From IMG/VR virus record IMGVR_UViG_3300036853_000096, positions 1 through 44,877 of that record: 44,877 nt of DNA; one strand, given 5' to 3'. The position numbers were made by a program, and so were the translations under genes. How positions within the stretch are numbered: the first letter of the stretch is position 1; each line of letters opens with the position of its first letter. Below the pieces are notes generated by a model. That model was not told where the DNA came from, did not search any database, and saw only the letters and a program-made list of their open reading frames with translations. This DNA comes from a virus. Below are positions 25,857-42,596 of this stretch, piece by piece.

Positions 25857-26195
25857 GTGTCTGTCGAGTACATAAACGAATCCAAGCGGATGGCGGACCT
25901 CATCGTCCGTTCCGTGCATCGCGGTCCTGGAGACACGGTGGATGCGGCGATGCACCGCGCGGAACGCGAATATGGGGCGCCAGCGAAATGGCTGCACAGG
26001 CTTCGATACCGTCATGATCTCAGGGACATGCCGGTGTCGGCATTTTTCGCGCTGTTGGCCGCCTTCATGGCGGTGATCAAGGCGGGAGAGAAATACGAAC
26101 AGGAAAAGGCTTTGGCGGATGCGAGGAATTCGAAAGTTCTTTGGTTGGCTGATCTTGTACACGGCCCGCAAGATCTGGGAAGCGACCGGCCGTGA
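25857..26195 (+). CDS. Hypothetical protein, 112 aa
   Basis: The GTG at 25857 follows AAAAGGGCAACAAA; a TTG at 25824 is the alternative. The product has HRAEREYGAPAKWLHRLRYR in the middle and a hydrophobic stretch (VSAFFALLAAFMAVIKAG) that may be a buried helix or a weak membrane segment. It overlaps the RusA-like gene by 4 bp and is the first gene of the rightward replication run. No family is recognised with confidence. Confidence 0.55.
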   Translation: MSVEYINESKRMADLIVRSVHRGPGDTVDAAMHRAEREYGAPAKWLHRLRYRHDLRDMPVSAFFALLAAFMAVIKAGEKYEQEKALADARNSKVLWLADLVHGPQDLGSDRP

Positions 26196-26641
26196 ACGCG
26201 ATCAATACACGGAATAAGGCCACGGTGAGGCCACAACAGACCGGCGGTGCCGCCCTGGCGGACCCGGTATCGCCGGTCACAATCTCCATAAACCTTCCAT
26301 GGCCTCCGAGCGAGTTGCACCCGAATGCTCGCGTGCACTGGGCGAAGAAAGCAAAAATCACAAAGCGGTGCCGGCAATTCGCATGGGCAAAAACGCTAAC
26401 GCTAAGCATCGCTGACCGGCGCAGAGGCGCTGACGCATCGCGATCGCTGACGGTTACTGCCGTATTCTGTCCACCCGACGCCAGGCGCCGCGATACCGAT
26501 GGGATGCTGAGCGCCTGCAAGGCCTATTTCGACGGCATCGCCGATGCCCTGGGTGTCGATGACAGCCGTTGGCAGCTCTCGCTTCGTCGCGAAGCGCCCG
26601 TCAAGAACGGCTTGGTTCGTATCGAGCTGGGGGCGGCGTGA
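26192..26641 (+). CDS. rusA: RusA-family Holliday junction resolvase
   Basis: The 149-aa product begins at a GTG overlapping the previous stop. [20 protein letters not shown] is the usual RusA N-terminal strand and loop. [20 protein letters not shown] with the following DALGVDDS matches the RusA active-site pattern D-x-D-(N/G)-x-x-K-x-x-x-D-x-x-x-DD, providing metal-binding Asp residues. RusA cuts branched DNA arising during replication and recombination. The family is common next to phage replication genes. Confidence 0.85.
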
Positions 26642-26642
26642 C

Positions 26643-28076
26643 GTGGCCGCTTACTACAATGAACACGATCCGTTCGCTGCGGCGTGGCTGCGCGAACTCG
26701 TCAGGGAAGGACTCATCGCCCATGGCGTCGTTGACGAACGGTCAATTATCGATGTTCCCGCCTCCGATCTCAGAGGCTTCACCCAGTGCCATTTCTTCGC
26801 CGGCATCGGAGGCTGGAGCTACGCTCTTCGGCTCGCCGGATGGCCCGACGATCGAGCGGTCTGGACCGGCTCCTGTCCATGTCAGCCGCTTTCGAGCGCG
26901 GGCAAGCGGAAAGGCCATGCCGACGAACGACACCTCTGGCCCGCTTTTCACCGCCTCATCGCCGAGTGCCGCCCTGCAACGGTCTTTGGAGAGCAGGTTG
27001 CGAGCAAGGATGGAAGGGAATGGTTTTCTGCTGTACGCGCTGACCTGGAAGCAGATGGATATGCCTGCGGGGGTGCCGATATGCCGGCTGCGGGCATCGG
27101 CGCACCGCACAAAAGGCAAAGGCTCTGGTGGGTTGCGCAAAGGATGGCCGACGCCAACCACGCGCGACTGGAAGGACGGCAAGGAACAGCCAAACGTGCC
27201 GCTGAACTCGCTGCTCGGCAGGGAGGCATGGCTGGCCGGCTGGGGCACCCCGAACGCCTCGGCGCCGGGCGGGACGCCGGAACAGGCATTGGCCCGCAAG
27301 GAGGGTCTGTCCTGCGGCCAGAGTGTGACGACGCTGGATCATCAGGTGCAGTTGGCCGGCTGGAGCACGCCAACGGTAGCGGAGCGCGACCGCAGCCCGG
27401 AGATCATCGCGAAACTGGCGAAGAAGCGGCTCGACGAGCACGGCCAGACGACGGTGCCGCTGTACGTGACGGAGCAGGTGCAGTTGGCCGGCTGGCCGAC
27501 GCCGGCGTCTCGAGCGGACAGTTCGAATGCTCGGAACAATGGAGCGACGAGGCACAACCCGCAGAGCAACCACCATGCTGGGACGACGCTGGTGGACGCG
27601 ACGGACTTGGCCGGCTGGCCGAGCCCAACTGTCGGCAACGCAATGGGCTCCCAGATGGCCAAGGACGCGTCGGCGACGGGCCGGCGACCGGATGGCAGCA
27701 AGGCCACGGTGAGCCTGAACCACGTCGGGAGCTTGGCGGGGTGGCCGACGCCACGACAGGCGGACGGCGAGAAGAACGTGCGCACGCTGGACGGCAGCTT
27801 GTCGGAGATCGAGCGCAAGGGCAGCCCACAGGACTTGGCGCAAGCGGCAGCGATCACAGGCCCAGCCCGACTAACGGCTTCTGGCGAGATGCTGACTGGC
27901 TCTTCTGCACAGACCACAAGTGGCGGCCAGTTGAACCCGGCACATTCCCGCTGGTTGATGGGGCTCCCGCCCGAGTGGGACGCCTGCGCGGTTATGGCAA
28001 TGCCATCGTACCGGCTGTCGCAGCGACGTTCATCGAAGCGTATCTCGACATCCAGACGATCGAGGTGATGCCGTGA
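26643..28076 (+). CDS. C5-cytosine DNA methyltransferase
   Basis: The 477-aa product starts at the GTG 2 bp after the RusA stop. FFAGIGGW (residues 51-58) is the S-adenosylmethionine motif I. SCPCQP holds the catalytic Cys80. FGEQV is motif VI, RQRLWWV motif VIII, and [19 protein letters not shown] the C-terminal motifs IX/X region. Between motif VIII and the C-terminus lies about 250 residues of Gly/Arg/Ala-rich, repetitive sequence ([22 protein letters not shown]). Methylation would protect phage DNA from host restriction. Almost the whole gene also carries a second open frame. Confidence 0.85.
26722..28068 (+). CDS. Long open frame overprinted on the methyltransferase gene
   Basis: The ATG at 26722 opens 448 codons in another frame, closing 8 bp before the methyltransferase stop. 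The product has five (Q/W/D/S)LAGW(P/G/S)(T/S)P repeats about 125 bp apart, [39 protein letters not shown], and a C-terminal [21 protein letters not shown] recognise these segments from many phage proteins annotated on their own, so conservation in this frame appears real rather than chance. A GGAAGG lies 11 bp before the ATG. Whether it is translated or reflects constraint from the methyltransferase frame is unknown. Confidence 0.5.
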
Positions 28077-28816
28077 ACCCCTTCTCGGCCTACGGCATCG
28101 ATCACATTTCGGTCTCGCAGCTCAATCTGTGGGCTGCGGCGCCCGGCGTCTACGTCATGGAGCGGCTGCTCAAGCGCAGCGCGCCCGTTGGCGCCGCCGC
28201 GCACCGCGGCGCTGCGGTCGAGGCAGGCATCATCGCCGGCCTCGAGGGCGCCCCCCTCAACGAGGCGATCGACATCGCCAACGCCATCTTCACCGAACGC
28301 ACCGCGATGTCGTCGGACCCGCGCCGCGGCAAGGAACGCGAAAGCCTGGCCGGCATGGTCGAGCAGGGCATCAGCCTTCTCGCGCCATGGGGCAGGCCCG
28401 ATCGCACGCAGCAGCGCAAGGACTGGCAGATGGACGGCATCGCTGTTCCCATGCTCGGCTATAGCGACCTCGAATACGACGGGCACGGCCTGATCGTCGA
28501 CATCAAGTCGACACACGCGCTGCCGTCCGAGATCAAGACGCCGCATGCGCGCCAGGTGGCGAGCTACCTCGGCCCCGGCGCCAACATGACCGGCGGCGTC
28601 GCCTACGTAACCGGCAAAAAGGCCACGCTCTACCAAGTCGAGAATACAGCCGAGCACGTCACGGCGCTGGTGCGCATTGCGCTCTCGCTGCAGCGGTTTC
28701 TCGCGATCAGCGCCGACGCCCACGAGCTGGCGGCGCTGCTGTCGATCGACACCGAAAGCTTCTATCTCGCCGACCCGCGCGCGCGACAGCACGCGTTCGA
28801 GGTGTTCGGCGTCTAG
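28073..28816 (+). CDS. PD-(D/E)XK nuclease, RecB/Cas4-like
   Basis: The 247-aa product starts at a GTG overlapping the methyltransferase stop. RVSQLNLW-like opening residues (HISVSQLNLWAAAPGVYVME), HRGAAVEAGI, GYSDLEYDGHGLIVDIKSTH with the D-(x)n-D-I-K core, and HARQVASYLG form the standard order of a PD-(D/E)XK nuclease of the Cas4/RecB type. It has no Cys cluster. Phage members usually act as exonucleases in recombination or replication. Prim-Pol/helicase and resolvase genes nearby support that role. Confidence 0.75.
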   Translation: MNPFSAYGIDHISVSQLNLWAAAPGVYVMERLLKRSAPVGAAAHRGAAVEAGIIAGLEGAPLNEAIDIANAIFTERTAMSSDPRRGKERESLAGMVEQGISLLAPWGRPDRTQQRKDWQMDGIAVPMLGYSDLEYDGHGLIVDIKSTHALPSEIKTPHARQVASYLGPGANMTGGVAYVTGKKATLYQVENTAEHVTALVRIALSLQRFLAISADAHELAALLSIDTESFYLADPRARQHAFEVFGV

Positions 28817-30166: not shown

Positions 30167-32245
30167 ATGGGTTTCATGACGAGGCGAGACTTGAACATAA
30201 AAGCGCCCGACGATTTTGCAAGTGCCGCCGAGTGGGCCAACGCTTACCGCGCTCTCGGCCTCGCCGTCATCCCCGCCAGCGGCAACAAGAAAATCCCGCT
30301 GGGCGAGTGGAAGGAATTCCAGGGCGGCATCCCCCAGCCCGTGCACGACCGCTGGTACGGCGCCGGCGGCGACAACCTCTCGAATTACCGCATGGGCTTC
30401 CTGACCGGCGCCGCGTCGATCGGCGACGGATGGAAGCTGCTTCTCATAGACCTCGACGAAAAGGGCGCCATCTCCGGCAACGCGACGTGGGATCACTGGA
30501 TCGGCGAGAACGAGCTCGGCGTCGATCCCGAGACATGGCGCGCCAGGACCGGCGGCGGCGGCCAGCACATCTATTTCAAATACCCGGCAGACCTTCACAT
30601 CAGGAACACCCAGGAGACGATCGCCGGCATCGACGTTCGCGCCGAAGGCGGATTCGTGATCGCCCCGCCATCACTCCACGCGAGCGGCCGGCCGTATACG
30701 TGGCTCTATTCCCCATTCGAGACGGAACTCGCCGAGGCGCCGCAATGGCTGCTCGACAAGGTCGGCGCGTCGGCGCGGCCGTTCGATGCATCGCCGCGGG
30801 AGAAGGGCACCACGCCGGAACATGCCACGGATACGTGGGGCAACATTGTCGACGGCCGCGACGCTTACATGCGCGATGTCGTGTGGGCGGCCGTGGTCGA
30901 CCTCTATCGGGAATGCCCGATCCAGCCTCCAGAGCGCGAATCCGAAACTAAGTGTCTGGAGGCATATGCCACCTACTTGCGCCGCGTGCGACCGCAGGAA
31001 CTGGGCAAGTCTCTTGAGGACGAGGGGCGTGGCATTACCGCATTTCGCCAGAAATGGGCTTACGCAATGCGGCAGTGGGACGGCAAGGTCCACGAAGCCG
31101 CCGGCTATCCTTCGTTCAAGGATCGGCAGCCCACCTGGGATTTCGATGACGAGCTGATCGCACGCAGGGTTGACCCTGTGGCGTCAGCGCCAGCGTTGGT
31201 GCCGCCAGTCCGCTTCGTTTTCGAGACCATAGGCGATCTCCGCAAACGCCCGCCGGCCAAGTGGCTTGTCGACGGCTGGATACCGGAAGGCGCCATGGGA
31301 ATATTCTACGGCAAGTGGGCCGCAGGGAAATCGTTCATCGCCTTCGATCTCGGCCTGCACATTGCCTACAGCATGGAGACCTGGCACGGGGTCAAGCTGC
31401 CGGAAGGCGGTGCCGACGTGCTGGTGATCGCACGCGAAGGCCACCAGGGGTTCGTCCAGCGCATAGACGCCTTCAAGCAGCACTATGGCCTCGTCGACGA
31501 CACCGATCGCATCTTTTTCATGCGCGCGTCGGTGTCGTTCCAGAACGCTGACGATTTCAAGGCGCTGTGCACGGCCATACAGGCCCAGGGAAGAGCCTAC
31601 CGGCTTGTCCTGATCGATACCGTCGCCCGGGTTCTGCCAGGCGCGGATATGAACACCCAGGAGACGGCAACGGCGTTCATGGAGCGCTGCGCATACATCT
31701 CCCAGATCACGACTGCGGCGACGATCGGCGTCCACCACCAGAACAAGTCGGGCGGCATGATGGGCTCGACCTATTTCGAGGCCAACGCCGATTTCGTGTT
31801 CGAGGTCGAGCGGCACAATCCGGACGAAACGTCGCTGCAGTCCGGCGAGATCACATGCACGAAAATGAAGGACGGCGAGGACAACTGGAAGCGCGCCGTC
31901 CGCTACGAAAAGATCGCTACCGGGCCGACAGAGAGCAGCCTCGTCGTCAAGTCGATCGGTGGACCGGCGGCGGAAACGACGAGCAATCTACCCCCACGTG
32001 AAACGTGTCGCGCCATCCTGGATATGGTCCGCCGGCACTGGGACGAGAAGCATCCACTCAACCATACCGCGCAGGCCAAGGCTTCCGGCAAGTACGCGCC
32101 CCGGATCATCGGCAAAGCGTTCGGGCTCGAGCCGAAGGTTGTCGACAGGCTGATTCTCGAGTGGATCGATAACGACATCCTGCGTCTCGAAATATTTAAC
32201 ACAAATACCAAAGCCAAGGGGCTTCGGGTGATCGGGAGCATCTGA
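30167..32245 (+). CDS. Bifunctional primase-polymerase / RepA-type helicase
   Basis: The 692-aa product has a Prim-Pol domain at residues about 20-210: LAVIPASGNKKIPLGEWKEF, LLIDLDEKG with catalytic acids, GGGGQHIYF, and GIDVRAEGGFVIAPPS. A RepA/AAA_25-type ATPase follows, with Walker A GKWAAGKS at residues 382-389 and a Walker B-like RLVLIDTVARV. The C-terminal 90 residues resemble a winged domain. It would open DNA and prime synthesis for phage replication. An iteron array lies directly downstream. A Met three codons later is an alternative start. Confidence 0.88.
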   Translation: MGFMTRRDLNIKAPDDFASAAEWANAYRALGLAVIPASGNKKIPLGEWKEFQGGIPQPVHDRWYGAGGDNLSNYRMGFLTGAASIGDGWKLLLIDLDEKGAISGNATWDHWIGENELGVDPETWRARTGGGGQHIYFKYPADLHIRNTQETIAGIDVRAEGGFVIAPPSLHASGRPYTWLYSPFETELAEAPQWLLDKVGASARPFDASPREKGTTPEHATDTWGNIVDGRDAYMRDVVWAAVVDLYRECPIQPPERESETKCLEAYATYLRRVRPQELGKSLEDEGRGITAFRQKWAYAMRQWDGKVHEAAGYPSFKDRQPTWDFDDELIARRVDPVASAPALVPPVRFVFETIGDLRKRPPAKWLVDGWIPEGAMGIFYGKWAAGKSFIAFDLGLHIAYSMETWHGVKLPEGGADVLVIAREGHQGFVQRIDAFKQHYGLVDDTDRIFFMRASVSFQNADDFKALCTAIQAQGRAYRLVLIDTVARVLPGADMNTQETATAFMERCAYISQITTAATIGVHHQNKSGGMMGSTYFEANADFVFEVERHNPDETSLQSGEITCTKMKDGEDNWKRAVRYEKIATGPTESSLVVKSIGGPAAETTSNLPPRETCRAILDMVRRHWDEKHPLNHTAQAKASGKYAPRIIGKAFGLEPKVVDRLILEWIDNDILRLEIFNTNTKAKGLRVIGSI

Positions 32246-38939: not shown

Positions 38940-39329
38940 ATGCAAGTCTTTATGAGCCAGGCGGCAAAGCAGGAAATCGTCCTGTTTCAGCTTCTCACGG
39001 CGAACATGAACATCACGACGGACCAGTCATTCGTGAAGTTGCTGGGCTTCACGAATTACCTGATCACGCGCATCAGGGCGGCCAACTCGTCGGGCAGCCT
39101 GACAACGGCGGCCGGCGGCATTTACACGGCTGCCACAAAGGGCGGCAACGCGCTTGTGGCCGCGGCGCAGGCCTACTCCACGCTGACGGGTTCGACCATC
39201 GGCCTTGACCTTACGCTGGCCGCTGTCGGCGCCGGCGTGCAGACGGTTACGCCGATCCTGTCGCTTACGACCGGCCAGGGCTCGGCGATGACGTGCGATA
39301 TGTACATCATCGGGGTGCCGCTGACGTGA
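38940..39329 (+). CDS. Small structural protein, 129 aa
   Basis: The product (MQVFMSQAAKQEIVLFQLLT) is Ala/Thr/Gly-rich with TNYLITRIRAANSSGSLTTA and a C-terminal beta region ending YIIGVPLT. It resembles in composition the product at 36955 and the one at 1032, so these may be related decoration-type proteins. Its stop overlaps the GTG start of the glycanase gene. Confidence 0.5.
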   Translation: MQVFMSQAAKQEIVLFQLLTANMNITTDQSFVKLLGFTNYLITRIRAANSSGSLTTAAGGIYTAATKGGNALVAAAQAYSTLTGSTIGLDLTLAAVGAGVQTVTPILSLTTGQGSAMTCDMYIIGVPLT

Positions 39330-40573
39330 AGCGCCTGATTTCCCTTGCGTTCCTGCTGATAACCGGCGTTGCGCGCGCCGGAACGGCCGAAGATATATTG
39401 ACCTTGATGGATCAGCAGATGAAGGACGCAGCCGGCAAGGTGGCGACCTCGCGGGCCTATATCGCGCAGGAAAGCACAGCTATCGCCGCGCTCAACGCTC
39501 AGATTCTCTCTGGTCAGACGGCACTCGCTGCCTCTCAGGCCGCGCTTACAACCGCACAGGCGCAGCTTGCCGCAGTGCAAGCCGATTTCGATGCCTACAA
39601 GGCGATGATCCTTCAAAAGTTCGGCCCGCTTGGCTTGGTCGACTGGCAGAAGACCGAGTATCGAGGCTATCCGCTTGACCTGACCGGATTCACCGAGGCG
39701 TTCAGCAGCGATTTCAGCGACCTTTCGCAGATCAGCGGGCCGACCGGCGTCGGTCCCTGGTACTCGAGCGTGCACAGCGGTTTCGGTGGCGCTGGCTTCG
39801 TGCCGATCGGCGGGGCCAACGATCCTTACTCGATCGTCAACGGAGCGTTGCAGATACGCGTTTCGCATGTCGGCACAGTCACCAACGCCGGCTGGTACGG
39901 CGGCATCATCCAGACGATGAAAGCCGATGGCACCGGCTTCGCGCTCGGTCTCGATGCAGAACCGGGCGTCAGCACTGCGCATCAGGCGATCGCTTTCGAG
40001 GCGAGGATAAAGCTGCCACCGGCCGATCCGGCGTATGTGCCATGCTGTGGTGGACCGCTGATGTATACAGCCGGCAGTCCAGCGCACGGCCATTGGGGCT
40101 CGTTCTGGCTGCTCAGCGCCGCCGACTTCCACAGCGAGATCACCGACTTCCTGATCGAGCAGGACGTGATCGAGAGCTACGGCGACGACAAGGGCGACCA
40201 CTCGACGGTTCATATCAAGTCGCGAAAGGTGCCGCAGGCCGGCGACTATCTGTATCCGACTGGCGGCTGGCGTGCCAGCAAAGCGCTCTACACCGACCCG
40301 CAGACGGTCAAGAATACAGTAGGCGGCGCGCAGACCTTCCCGGCCGGCGTCACGCTTGGGGACGGGCAGTTCCACACCTACACCCAGGTGATGGACGATC
40401 AGTGGATCACGGAATACATTGACGGGCTCTCGATCGGCCGCTTTCCAATGCTGCCTGAGTTCCGCACGCCGCTCTACATGCTCGTCAACCACACGACCTA
40501 CGCCGACAAGGTGTCGTCGATCCCGGCGCAACTCGACATGCAGGTCGACTATGTGAAGGCGTACGCGCGATGA
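39326..40573 (+). CDS. GH16-like glycanase with signal peptide (putative depolymerase)
   Basis: The 415-aa product starts at GTG. Residues 1-18 (MKRLISLAFLLITGVARA) form a signal peptide, followed by a coiled coil (about 40-100: LAASQAALTTAQAQLAAVQA). The main domain has HWGSFWLLS, then FLIEQDVIESYG with E278-x-D280-x-x-E283, the ExDxxE catalytic motif of GH16 glycoside hydrolases, and QFHTYTQVMDDQWITEYIDG, the usual GH16 strand pair. GH16 enzymes cut beta-glucans and related polymers such as rhizobial succinoglycan. The export signal suggests a secreted enzyme as well as, or instead of, a virion part. Confidence 0.75.
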   Translation: MKRLISLAFLLITGVARAGTAEDILTLMDQQMKDAAGKVATSRAYIAQESTAIAALNAQILSGQTALAASQAALTTAQAQLAAVQADFDAYKAMILQKFGPLGLVDWQKTEYRGYPLDLTGFTEAFSSDFSDLSQISGPTGVGPWYSSVHSGFGGAGFVPIGGANDPYSIVNGALQIRVSHVGTVTNAGWYGGIIQTMKADGTGFALGLDAEPGVSTAHQAIAFEARIKLPPADPAYVPCCGGPLMYTAGSPAHGHWGSFWLLSAADFHSEITDFLIEQDVIESYGDDKGDHSTVHIKSRKVPQAGDYLYPTGGWRASKALYTDPQTVKNTVGGAQTFPAGVTLGDGQFHTYTQVMDDQWITEYIDGLSIGRFPMLPEFRTPLYMLVNHTTYADKVSSIPAQLDMQVDYVKAYAR

Positions 40574-40592
40574 TCGGTGAGAGCCGTTAACC

Positions 40593-42596
40593 ATGGCCGG
40601 TAATTATCAACGCGGAGAGCAGGACGCCGCATCGGGCGCCGATCCGGAGCTATTGAAATATCAGCAGTGGTTTCGTCCCGACCTCGTCAAAGCCCAGAAA
40701 TGGCGCAAGGAGGCGAAGGAGGATTTCAAGTTCCGCGACGGCGATCAGTGGTCGGATGACGACAAGCGCGTCCTCGAGGAACAGGGCCGCTATCCCTTCA
40801 CGTTCAACCGAACCGGCGTGCTGGTCGACGCCGTGGTCGGCGCCGAAAGCTCCAATCGCCGTGAGGTGCGCTACATCCCACGCGAGACCGGCGACAGTTT
40901 GCCCAACGAGCTGCTGACCTCGGCTGCCGAATGGTTCCGTGACCAATGCAACGCCGAGGACGAGGAATCGACCGCCTTCAAGGATGTCGTTACTTCGGGC
41001 ATGGGCTGGACGGAAACCAGGCTCGACAGGACGAACAACCCGGCCGGCGACCCGAAGATCGAGCAGATCAGCCCGTTCGAGATGGTTTGGCATTGCGATG
41101 CGATGAAGCCGAACCTGACGGATGCCAAGCGGCTCTGGCGCGTTCGCAAGGTCGATACCGAGGAAGCCGAAAAGCAGTTCCCCGGCTTTGAGCCGAGCGA
41201 ACTCAATGCTGCATGGGCAGATGAGGACAGCACGGACGCCGAGGCGACCGTGAACGATCCGACGGCCCGCTACACGGTCGACGGGAAGGACCGGAAGCCG
41301 AAGAAGGTGACGATCGTCGCCTGCCAGTACGTGGAAGAGGAGACCTACTACAAGACGGCGATGCTTCAGCCCGGCATGATGCAGCCGACCGTGGTCGACC
41401 TGGACGAGAAGAAGCACAAGATCGCCCAGAAGGCCGGCGTCGTGCTGCAGTCCGCCAAGATGAAGCGCGAGACCGTCATGCAGTGCATCCTCGGCTCGAA
41501 GGTGCTGGTAAAGCCGACGCCGACGCAGACTGGCGGTTTTTCGTGGATCTGCATGACCGGCCTGAAGGACAACGACAACGGCATCTTCTATGGCATCGTG
41601 CGGCGTGCAAAAGACCCGCAGCGCTGGGCCAACAAGTGGCTATCGCAGATTGTCCATATCCTGAATTCGCAGGCCAAGGGCGGCGTCATGATGGAGCGCG
41701 GCGCCGCTGAAGATGACCGCGAATTCGAAGCGAGCTGGGCTCGCTCTGATCGTATTTCCTACTTGGAAAAGGGCACACTTTCCAACCCGAACGGGGCGAA
41801 GATCCAGCCCAAACCAGTGGCTCAGTTCCCGGCCGGATTCGATCGGCTGCTGCAGTACGCCGATGACATGATCATCAAGGCGACCGGCATCAACATGGAA
41901 CTCCTGGGGATGAGGGAGGTCAACCAGCCCGGCGTGCTGGAGTATCAGCGCAAGCAGTCGGGCATGGGCATTCTCGCCAGCTTCTTCGACAGCCTGAAGC
42001 GCTATCGCAAGATCCAGGGCAAGGGCATGCTGAGGCTGATCCAGGATTATCTGTCGGACGGCCGCATGGTGCGCATTGTCGGGCAGGATCGCGCCCAGTA
42101 CGTGCCGCTGACCAAGCCAGAAAACGCCGACATCGAGTACGACATCATCGTCGACGACGCGCCGACCAGCCCGAACGAGAAGGAGCGGACGTTCCAGCTT
42201 CTCACCAACCTGCTGCCGATGTTCAAGGATGCGATCGGGCCGCAGGAAATCGCGCTCATCGCCGAATATTCGCCGCTTCCGGCATCGTTCGTCGAGAAGC
42301 TGAAGCAGGGTATGGCCCAGAAGGCCGCACAGCCGCCACAGCCTGATCCGGCCGTGCAGGCGCAGATGCAGACCGAGGCGCTGAAGCAGCAGTCGGAGCA
42401 GGCCAAATATCAGGTGGAAATGGAGAAAATCCAGCTCCAGCGCGAGGAGATGGCGCAACAGCAGCAGCAGAACGTGCACGATTATCAAATGGCGCTCGTT
42501 CAGCAGGAGATTGAGAAGATCAAGGCCAGCGCGGCGATTGCACAGGCCACGAGGCCGCAGCCGATCTCGCCACCGTCCAGCTCGAGGATGAATTGA
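40593..42596 (+). CDS. Portal protein (P22-like)
   Basis: The 667-aa product matches P22-type portals: AKEDFKFRDGDQWSDDDKRV at the N-terminus, PFTFNRTGVLVDAVVGAESS, and IEQISPFEMVWHCDAMKPNL in the wing/stem region. RADYMI-type LLQYADDMIIKATGINMELL precedes the crown. The last 110 residues are Gln/Glu-rich coiled coil, like the long barrel helix of P22 portal. It forms the dodecameric DNA channel at one head vertex. It follows the surface-protein block and precedes scaffold and coat genes. Confidence 0.9.
   Translation: MAGNYQRGEQDAASGADPELLKYQQWFRPDLVKAQKWRKEAKEDFKFRDGDQWSDDDKRVLEEQGRYPFTFNRTGVLVDAVVGAESSNRREVRYIPRETGDSLPNELLTSAAEWFRDQCNAEDEESTAFKDVVTSGMGWTETRLDRTNNPAGDPKIEQISPFEMVWHCDAMKPNLTDAKRLWRVRKVDTEEAEKQFPGFEPSELNAAWADEDSTDAEATVNDPTARYTVDGKDRKPKKVTIVACQYVEEETYYKTAMLQPGMMQPTVVDLDEKKHKIAQKAGVVLQSAKMKRETVMQCILGSKVLVKPTPTQTGGFSWICMTGLKDNDNGIFYGIVRRAKDPQRWANKWLSQIVHILNSQAKGGVMMERGAAEDDREFEASWARSDRISYLEKGTLSNPNGAKIQPKPVAQFPAGFDRLLQYADDMIIKATGINMELLGMREVNQPGVLEYQRKQSGMGILASFFDSLKRYRKIQGKGMLRLIQDYLSDGRMVRIVGQDRAQYVPLTKPENADIEYDIIVDDAPTSPNEKERTFQLLTNLLPMFKDAIGPQEIALIAEYSPLPASFVEKLKQGMAQKAAQPPQPDPAVQAQMQTEALKQQSEQAKYQVEMEKIQLQREEMAQQQQQNVHDYQMALVQQEIEKIKASAAIAQATRPQPISPPSSSRMN

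Follow-up and report, generated by a model that had tools for sequence, protein, structure and literature searches.

A second, selected reading frame inside a phage C5-cytosine methyltransferase gene probably encodes the target-recognition half of the enzyme

The stretch of DNA analysed here (the window) comprises 44,877 nucleotides of a viral record in IMG/VR. After a RusA-type resolvase gene (26192-26641), the plus strand carries an ORF with a GTG start (alpha, 26643-28076, 477 aa), which encodes the catalytic subunit of a C5-cytosine methyltransferase (MTase). A second plus-strand ORF lies within the same DNA in the +1 frame (beta, 26917-28068, 383 aa from ATG 26917) and is predicted to encode a subunit that contains the target-recognition domain (TRD) and motif IX. 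Beta was assigned on the basis of matches to phrog_1008 (E 5e-35) and phrog_31772 (E 1e-35), stop suppression, and a codon-position test, and its start position was taken from the homologues. In the window, the +1 frame is also open upstream of ATG 26917, with 448 codons from ATG 26722 and 499 codons from TTG 26569, and its stop at 28068 lies 8 bp before the alpha stop at 28076; the length of 448 codons and the 8-bp offset given in an earlier sequence-only reading of this DNA are thus correct. That reading let the second frame run over nearly the same DNA as the MTase gene, which is true of the open frame but not of its conserved and selected part, which begins only at about MTase codon 91 (ATG 26917). 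The gene downstream of the MTase (28073-28816) starts at GTG 28073 with a 4 bp overlap with the alpha stop, and its product matches phrog_10230, a family of unknown function.

Alpha matches Pfam PF00145 (E 4.8e-14) and phrog_363 (E 1.5e-83), and its family profile aligns with residues 5-174 of M.HhaI, corresponding to motifs I-VIII, with an E-value of 2e-17. The motifs that define a C5 MTase are present in the expected order. Motif I (FAGIGGW, 26796-26816) is followed by motif IV with the catalytic PCQ (GSCPCQP, 26868-26888), together spanning 26796-26888 on the plus strand, and the segment from a motif VI-like sequence (VFGEQVA, where E-Q-V is a variant of ENV) to motif VIII (GAPHKRQR) spans 26982-27137 on the same strand, where it overlaps the N-terminal domain of beta and is dual coding. 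The conserved C-terminal part of alpha (27876-28013, plus strand), which is dual coding with beta as well, extends from GFWRDADW to GYGNAIVP, the GN-containing motif X at the end of the profile. Motif IX is absent from alpha in the profile alignments to M.HhaI and canonical C5 MTases, and no conserved TRD was found in this protein. The closest relative of the window alpha is only about 47% identical over the whole ORF; because the window has no close relative, selection was measured across the family and not in the window gene itself. In two loci, L098 (Plautia stali symbiont) and L165 (Consotaella), a stop interrupts the alpha frame while beta stays open.

Beta begins with a conserved N-terminal domain (26983-27111, plus strand) that ends with LRASAHRT and follows the family pattern SLESRLRAR...GSTLYKLTWK...LRASxRRT. 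According to the alignments and the AF2 model of the beta homologue from L021, this domain consists of a helix (residues 15-34) and a hairpin (strands within residues 40-62), modelled with a pLDDT of up to 88, and it is probably the part that binds alpha. It is followed by an array of six cassettes (27142-27861, plus strand), predicted TRD modules that open with GW-P/G/S-T/S-P throughout the family. The cassettes in the window start at 27142, 27238, 27358, 27490, 27613, and 27739 with a spacing of 96-132 bp; five of them are the LAGW repeats reported by the sequence-only reading, and a first unit with GWPTP makes six. Among 140 non-redundant betas, the number of cassettes ranges from 1 to 7 and is mostly 3. 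Cassette types recur in differing combinations among phages and some of them cross phyla, as judged from a comparison in which alpha identities below 30%, which are alignment artefacts of one locus, were left out. The window cassette at 27490, for example, is 51% identical over 39 residues to a cassette of Rhodococcus phage ReT1v-2. The array is followed by a highly conserved end segment (27922-27981, plus strand), which matches motif IX in register with residues 273-293 of M.HhaI (compare LHPRECARVMGYPDSY). The protein segments that the sequence-only reading had named are present at 26983 and 27922. Searches of beta against Pfam, NCBIfam, PADLOC, and PDB sequences yielded nothing meaningful. 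The AF2 model of beta alone has low confidence (pLDDT 60.6), as might be expected for a subunit modelled without its partner, and a structure search with this model returned no fold match, the best hit being an unrelated 60-residue protein with a Z score of 3.2.

A long open frame in such DNA could result from GC-rich codon usage and repeated DNA and not be translated. At 65% GC and with short repeats, an open frame is favoured, the region contains other chance ORFs, and shuffling the synonymous codons of the window gene alone gives an expectation of only 2.0 stops and a probability of about 0.01 of finding none, so that the proof has to come from the family rather than from this single sequence. 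We therefore counted stops in 89 homologues (80 relatives retrieved with the MTase frame as query, 8 retrieved with the second frame, and the window; 76 kb in total) and compared them with a null in which synonymous codons were shuffled within each gene. The +1 frame contains 1 stop against 218 expected. The third frame of the same homologues contains 1087 against 983 expected, with 5-31 per homologue, and 256 control genes located elsewhere on these contigs contain 2280 against 2367 expected. The single stop in the +1 frame belongs to L041; in all other relatives this frame is stop-free from about nucleotide 130 of the MTase gene to near its end, and within the initial 130 nucleotides or so stops are frequent among the homologues. 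The frame also stays open at 47-59% GC; a Paenibacillus phage of about 50% GC has it, as do enterobacterial phages including K1H.

The substitution pattern provides a second line of evidence. In the +1 arrangement, position 3 of an MTase codon is position 2 of a second-frame codon, and the two frames consequently predict different patterns. Substitutions were counted in 85 independent close pairs, with a smaller version of 33 pairs; the counts were identity-filtered, as the unfiltered count over the repeats is blurred by repeat misalignment. Before codon 85 or so, substitutions fall on MTase positions 1:2:3 in a ratio of 415:298:1446, which is the ordinary periodicity of alpha. Across the cassettes in the middle of the gene, the ratio is 720:212:133, which is the periodicity of the second frame, and the difference between the middle and the leader region is highly significant (Fisher p 7e-64, 33 pairs). 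The codon changes in the cassette region comprise 668 synonymous and 240 non-synonymous changes when read in beta, and 76 synonymous and 836 non-synonymous changes when read in alpha. This result, together with the periodicity, indicates that the cassette region functions as a gene solely in the second frame, and that the alpha frame across the cassettes is an unconstrained passenger, a tolerated linker. The proposal of the sequence-only reading that one DNA repeat serves both frames therefore fails, as purifying selection in the repeats acts on the second frame alone. Mixed patterns, as predicted for dual coding, were found at codons 103-165 or so (517:253:668) and in the C-terminal 52 codons (358:192:410). 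Dual selection is thus limited to alpha codons of about 100-165 and the C-terminal part, and the middle is constrained in beta alone.

Two outcomes had been set beforehand as refuting a coding second frame, namely stops in this frame in the majority of homologues that have an intact MTase, and neutral substitution within it, and we observed neither. Both frames are intact in 76 of the 80 loci retrieved with the MTase as query, the exceptions being two loci at contig ends, one with a frameshift that affects both frames, and one that fell a few residues short of the coverage cut-off (the genome figure of this check covers 70 loci, with L090-L099 left out), and the second frame is under strong purifying selection across the 85 pairs. 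The family-wide deficit of stops, the persistence of the open frame at 47-59% GC, and the flip of the substitution periodicity to the second frame leave practically no room for an untranslated by-product, a refutation that holds for the family and not for the window copy taken alone. At the family level, a chance open frame is thus ruled out by stop suppression and the codon-position counts, and it is essentially proven that the second frame is genuinely coding, old, and selected sequence.

The start of beta was examined in the homologues. Most of them have +1-frame stops upstream of about codon 91, and synonymous change in the MTase gene is depressed around this codon. In 183 non-redundant genes, we searched for a Shine-Dalgarno core 4-11 nt upstream of the start codon; a core of at least 4 nt precedes the beta-frame start in 72% of the genes versus 34% under synonymous resampling, and a core of at least 5 nt in 36% versus 9%. 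Most often, the start is a TTG located three codons ahead of ERHLW, a motif of the MTase. The start codon is not universal, as in some homologues the usual position is occupied by CTG or lacks a start codon, and ATG 26917 of the window has a poor Shine-Dalgarno sequence. The lack of a universal start and the conservation of part of the initiation region at synonymous sites would also fit programmed ribosomal frameshifting, by which ribosomes would reach the +1 frame from alpha and produce a fusion of the N-terminal part of alpha with beta but no free beta. However, the selected part of beta begins near codon 91 and overlaps motifs VI-VIII, which such a fusion would lose; the combination of a Shine-Dalgarno sequence and a start codon is about twofold above the null; and visual inspection of the start region revealed no conserved slippery sequence. 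We consider frameshifting very unlikely and favour initiation of beta at an internal start.

As alpha lacks motif IX, we looked at how well this motif can be assigned to beta. Compared with a profile of 29 canonical C5 MTases, the best local match of beta is motif IX of M.HhaI (KLHPRECARVMGYPDSY), but with an E-value of 0.044 this direct similarity is weak, and the identification rests on a bridge provided by single-chain relatives. In the actinophage loci L337 and L344, one frame encodes the whole series, from motifs I-VIII through four or five PTP cassettes to motif IX (RLTAAFPEWMMGWPAGW) and motif X. The beta profile matches the cassette and motif IX region of single-chain actinophage MTases with an E-value of 1.2e-7, and these in turn match canonical C5 MTases in motifs I-VIII (2e-37) and in motifs IX-X (0.001). 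By itself, L337 hits the PHROG of alpha (2.4e-78) as well as that of beta (4.2e-80). Of the single-chain set, for which only IMG/VR rows served as AF2 input, the model of L332 has a pTM of 0.71 and superposes on M.HhaI over 231 residues with a Z score of 21 and an rmsd of 3.2, although the cassettes are of low confidence there too. Through this strong bridge, motif IX is found in beta and not in alpha, and we strongly infer from the sequence comparisons that the second ORF encodes the recognition half of the MTase, that is, the TRD and motif IX. The cassettes, 1-7 per gene, occupy the place between motifs VIII and IX and are predicted recognition units on the grounds of position and sequence rather than structure.

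The sequence-only reading suggested an overprinted gene pair. In its strict form, beta would be a separate protein without functional relation to the MTase, such as an anti-restriction or DNA-binding protein, and would have originated de novo over a gene for a complete MTase. Two long frames do overlap, each is selected across parts of the overlap, and searches of Pfam, NCBIfam, and PADLOC assign no domain to beta. But alpha is not a complete MTase, as it has no motif IX; beta aligns with the cassette and motif IX region of single-chain enzymes, and fusions of both families into one chain exist; and alpha is unconstrained in the cassettes, which leaves no functional overprinting there. The locus thus differs from a pair of unrelated products that are both selected over their overlap, and overprinting of this kind is very improbable. 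What stands of the suggestion is a genuine, long overlapping gene pair; what does not stand is an extra, unrelated protein, in place of which the second frame holds the putative TRD array and motif IX. The same reading likened segments of the second frame to independently annotated phage proteins, whereas all the copies examined in detail, except L264, are in the +1 frame of an MTase or fused to it. All 168 loci retrieved by searching with beta, either alone or as alignment A2, overlap an MTase frame, which is broken in a few of them (L098, L149, and L165), and no stand-alone beta was found among them. In a profile search of genomes, L264 was the only beta-like region without a recognisable MTase hit. 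Its beta-like region (L264:1-1329, WQTPTSSATKG ... LNPEFVCWLMGFPKEW) ends an ORF that begins with an HNH-like protein, and the MTase frame is broken; this looks like a degraded copy.

Because beta contributes what alpha lacks, namely motif IX and the putative TRD array, the pair resembles two subunits of one enzyme. We consider it very probable that the locus encodes a naturally split C5 MTase of the M.EcoHK31I kind, in which the subunits share the same DNA and beta is started inside alpha. On one transcript, ribosomes would use the alpha start for alpha and an internal start, just past the catalytic PCQ loop, for beta. Alpha (26643-28076) would bind AdoMet and provide the catalytic cysteine with motifs I-VIII as well as the closing motif X; beta (about 26917-28068) would dock through its N-terminal domain and supply six target-recognition cassettes and motif IX. 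Together they would rebuild the usual order of motifs I-VIII, TRD, IX, and X, and the complex would methylate the phage DNA at one or more motifs, allowing the phage to evade host restriction. In the multispecific C5 MTases of Bacillus phages (the SPbeta and phi3T family), several consecutive TRDs of about 40 aa are located between motifs VIII and IX in a single chain and one frame. By analogy with these enzymes, each cassette would be a target-recognition unit and the array is probably multispecific; the variable, shuffled cassettes probably let one enzyme protect the phage DNA at several restriction targets. The window family differs from them in having the TRD array in another frame and cassettes with a W/L-P-T-P signature. 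Subunit assembly, target recognition by the cassettes, multispecificity, and a role against restriction are thus predicted features of the complex.

In M.EcoHK31I, the beta gene was reportedly described in 1995 in an alternative frame inside the alpha gene, and such nesting was found for the window family as well. M.EcoHK31I is a two-polypeptide C5 MTase that recognizes YGGCCR (Lee, Kam & Shaw 1995, as cited in PMC3404938). In the account given in PMC3404938, its larger subunit contains motifs I-VIII and X, its smaller subunit contains motif IX, both are needed, and the TRD is assigned to the larger subunit. The window family resembles this motif layout as described there, with motifs I-VIII and X in alpha and motif IX in beta. 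It differs in the position of the TRD: the TRD-like cassettes, and all selection detectable across them, are in beta, and alpha shows 76 synonymous and 836 non-synonymous changes in this region. As its TRD is not in alpha, the window family is classed as working like M.EcoHK31I and not as a member of its type. Furthermore, M.EcoHK31I is a bacterial restriction-modification enzyme with one target, whereas the window family consists mainly of phage and prophage genes with 1-7 cassettes. A second known split enzyme, M.AquI, is described as having motifs I-VIII in alpha, and the distal part of the variable region and motifs IX-X in beta (PMC3404938). The actinophage loci L353 and L364 look similar in being split after motif VIII, with overlapping ORFs; in contrast, window-type genes keep motif X in alpha and have a fully nested beta.

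Among the relatives, the order of the modules (motifs I-VIII, cassettes, IX, and X) is constant and their frame varies. Nearly all of 249 loci are of the window type, with the cassettes and motif IX in beta and motif X in alpha. The cassettes are in beta and motif IX is in alpha in L320, L327, and L328; in the actinophages Neville, Papez, and ReT1v-2, the cassettes are in beta and both motifs IX and X are in alpha; and in L353 and L364, alpha ends after motif VIII and an overlapping ORF contains the cassettes and motifs IX and X. In gp70 of the Mycobacterium phage ShiLan (L319:1309-2478), some of the LLPTP cassettes lie in the +1 frame and the others share frame 0 with motifs IX and X, which looks like a frame change between cassettes, and several other loci also have cassettes split between both frames. 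Frame-shifting indels in an ancestral single-chain gene would produce such architectures, and with its steps from single-chain to nested split genes this family offers a natural example for studying how split genes and overlaps evolve. Because the frame of the cassettes, alpha or beta, differs among relatives, and ShiLan gp70 has cassettes in both, the frame position might also serve as a specificity switch, with small indels between cassettes shifting TRD modules between subunits or silencing them; we regard this as a speculative idea with a rather low probability. If it were true, frame position and cassette shuffling would change which restriction sites the phages protect. In L075, L084, and L172, the beta frame extends at least 565 nt beyond the alpha stop, and beta may be fused to downstream sequence.

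Beta is matched by 212 phage records, and the family is also found in many bacterial genomes. The families phrog_363, phrog_1008, and phrog_31772 are all labelled just 'DNA methyltransferase', and their nested two-subunit relation is not stated. In GenBank, phage K1H (L324) has both ORFs annotated, as 'putative C-specific methylase' and 'putative Mte8-like protein'; both are also annotated in K1ind1 (L326) and PhiXhv-5 (L330), and in PMG1 (L331), a protein annotated as hypothetical resembles the Mte8-like (beta) ORF. Most records keep one ORF, and phage MTase annotation is inconsistent as to which frame is kept. Within the collection of papers searched, none was found on nested TRD subunits in phage MTases; the ShiLan-domain paper concerns an out-of-frame HNH in a different gene, gp65 (PMC11855218). 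The nested two-subunit arrangement, known from one or two bacterial enzymes, seems to be common among phages, where it has largely gone unnoticed. It is rare for long overlaps on the same strand to show clean evidence of selection in both frames, and of two such frames gene callers typically retain one. In this MTase family, which occurs in hundreds of phage records, the sequence-recognition half seems to be encoded by the hidden frame, so that phage MTases annotated from alpha alone are described without their TRD and motif IX. Where activity is missing or specificity is wrongly predicted, the cause may be that half an enzyme was cloned. Through the shuffled cassettes, restriction evasion by these phages becomes directly testable.

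Elsewhere in the window, two long antiparallel ORFs occupy the same DNA, one on the minus strand (39173-40594, 473 aa), which has no PHROG match, and one on the plus strand (39293-40573, 426 aa). The ORF at 30167-32245 encodes a 692-aa primase/polymerase-helicase-like protein (phrog_906 and phrog_1156), which is probably a phage replication protein.
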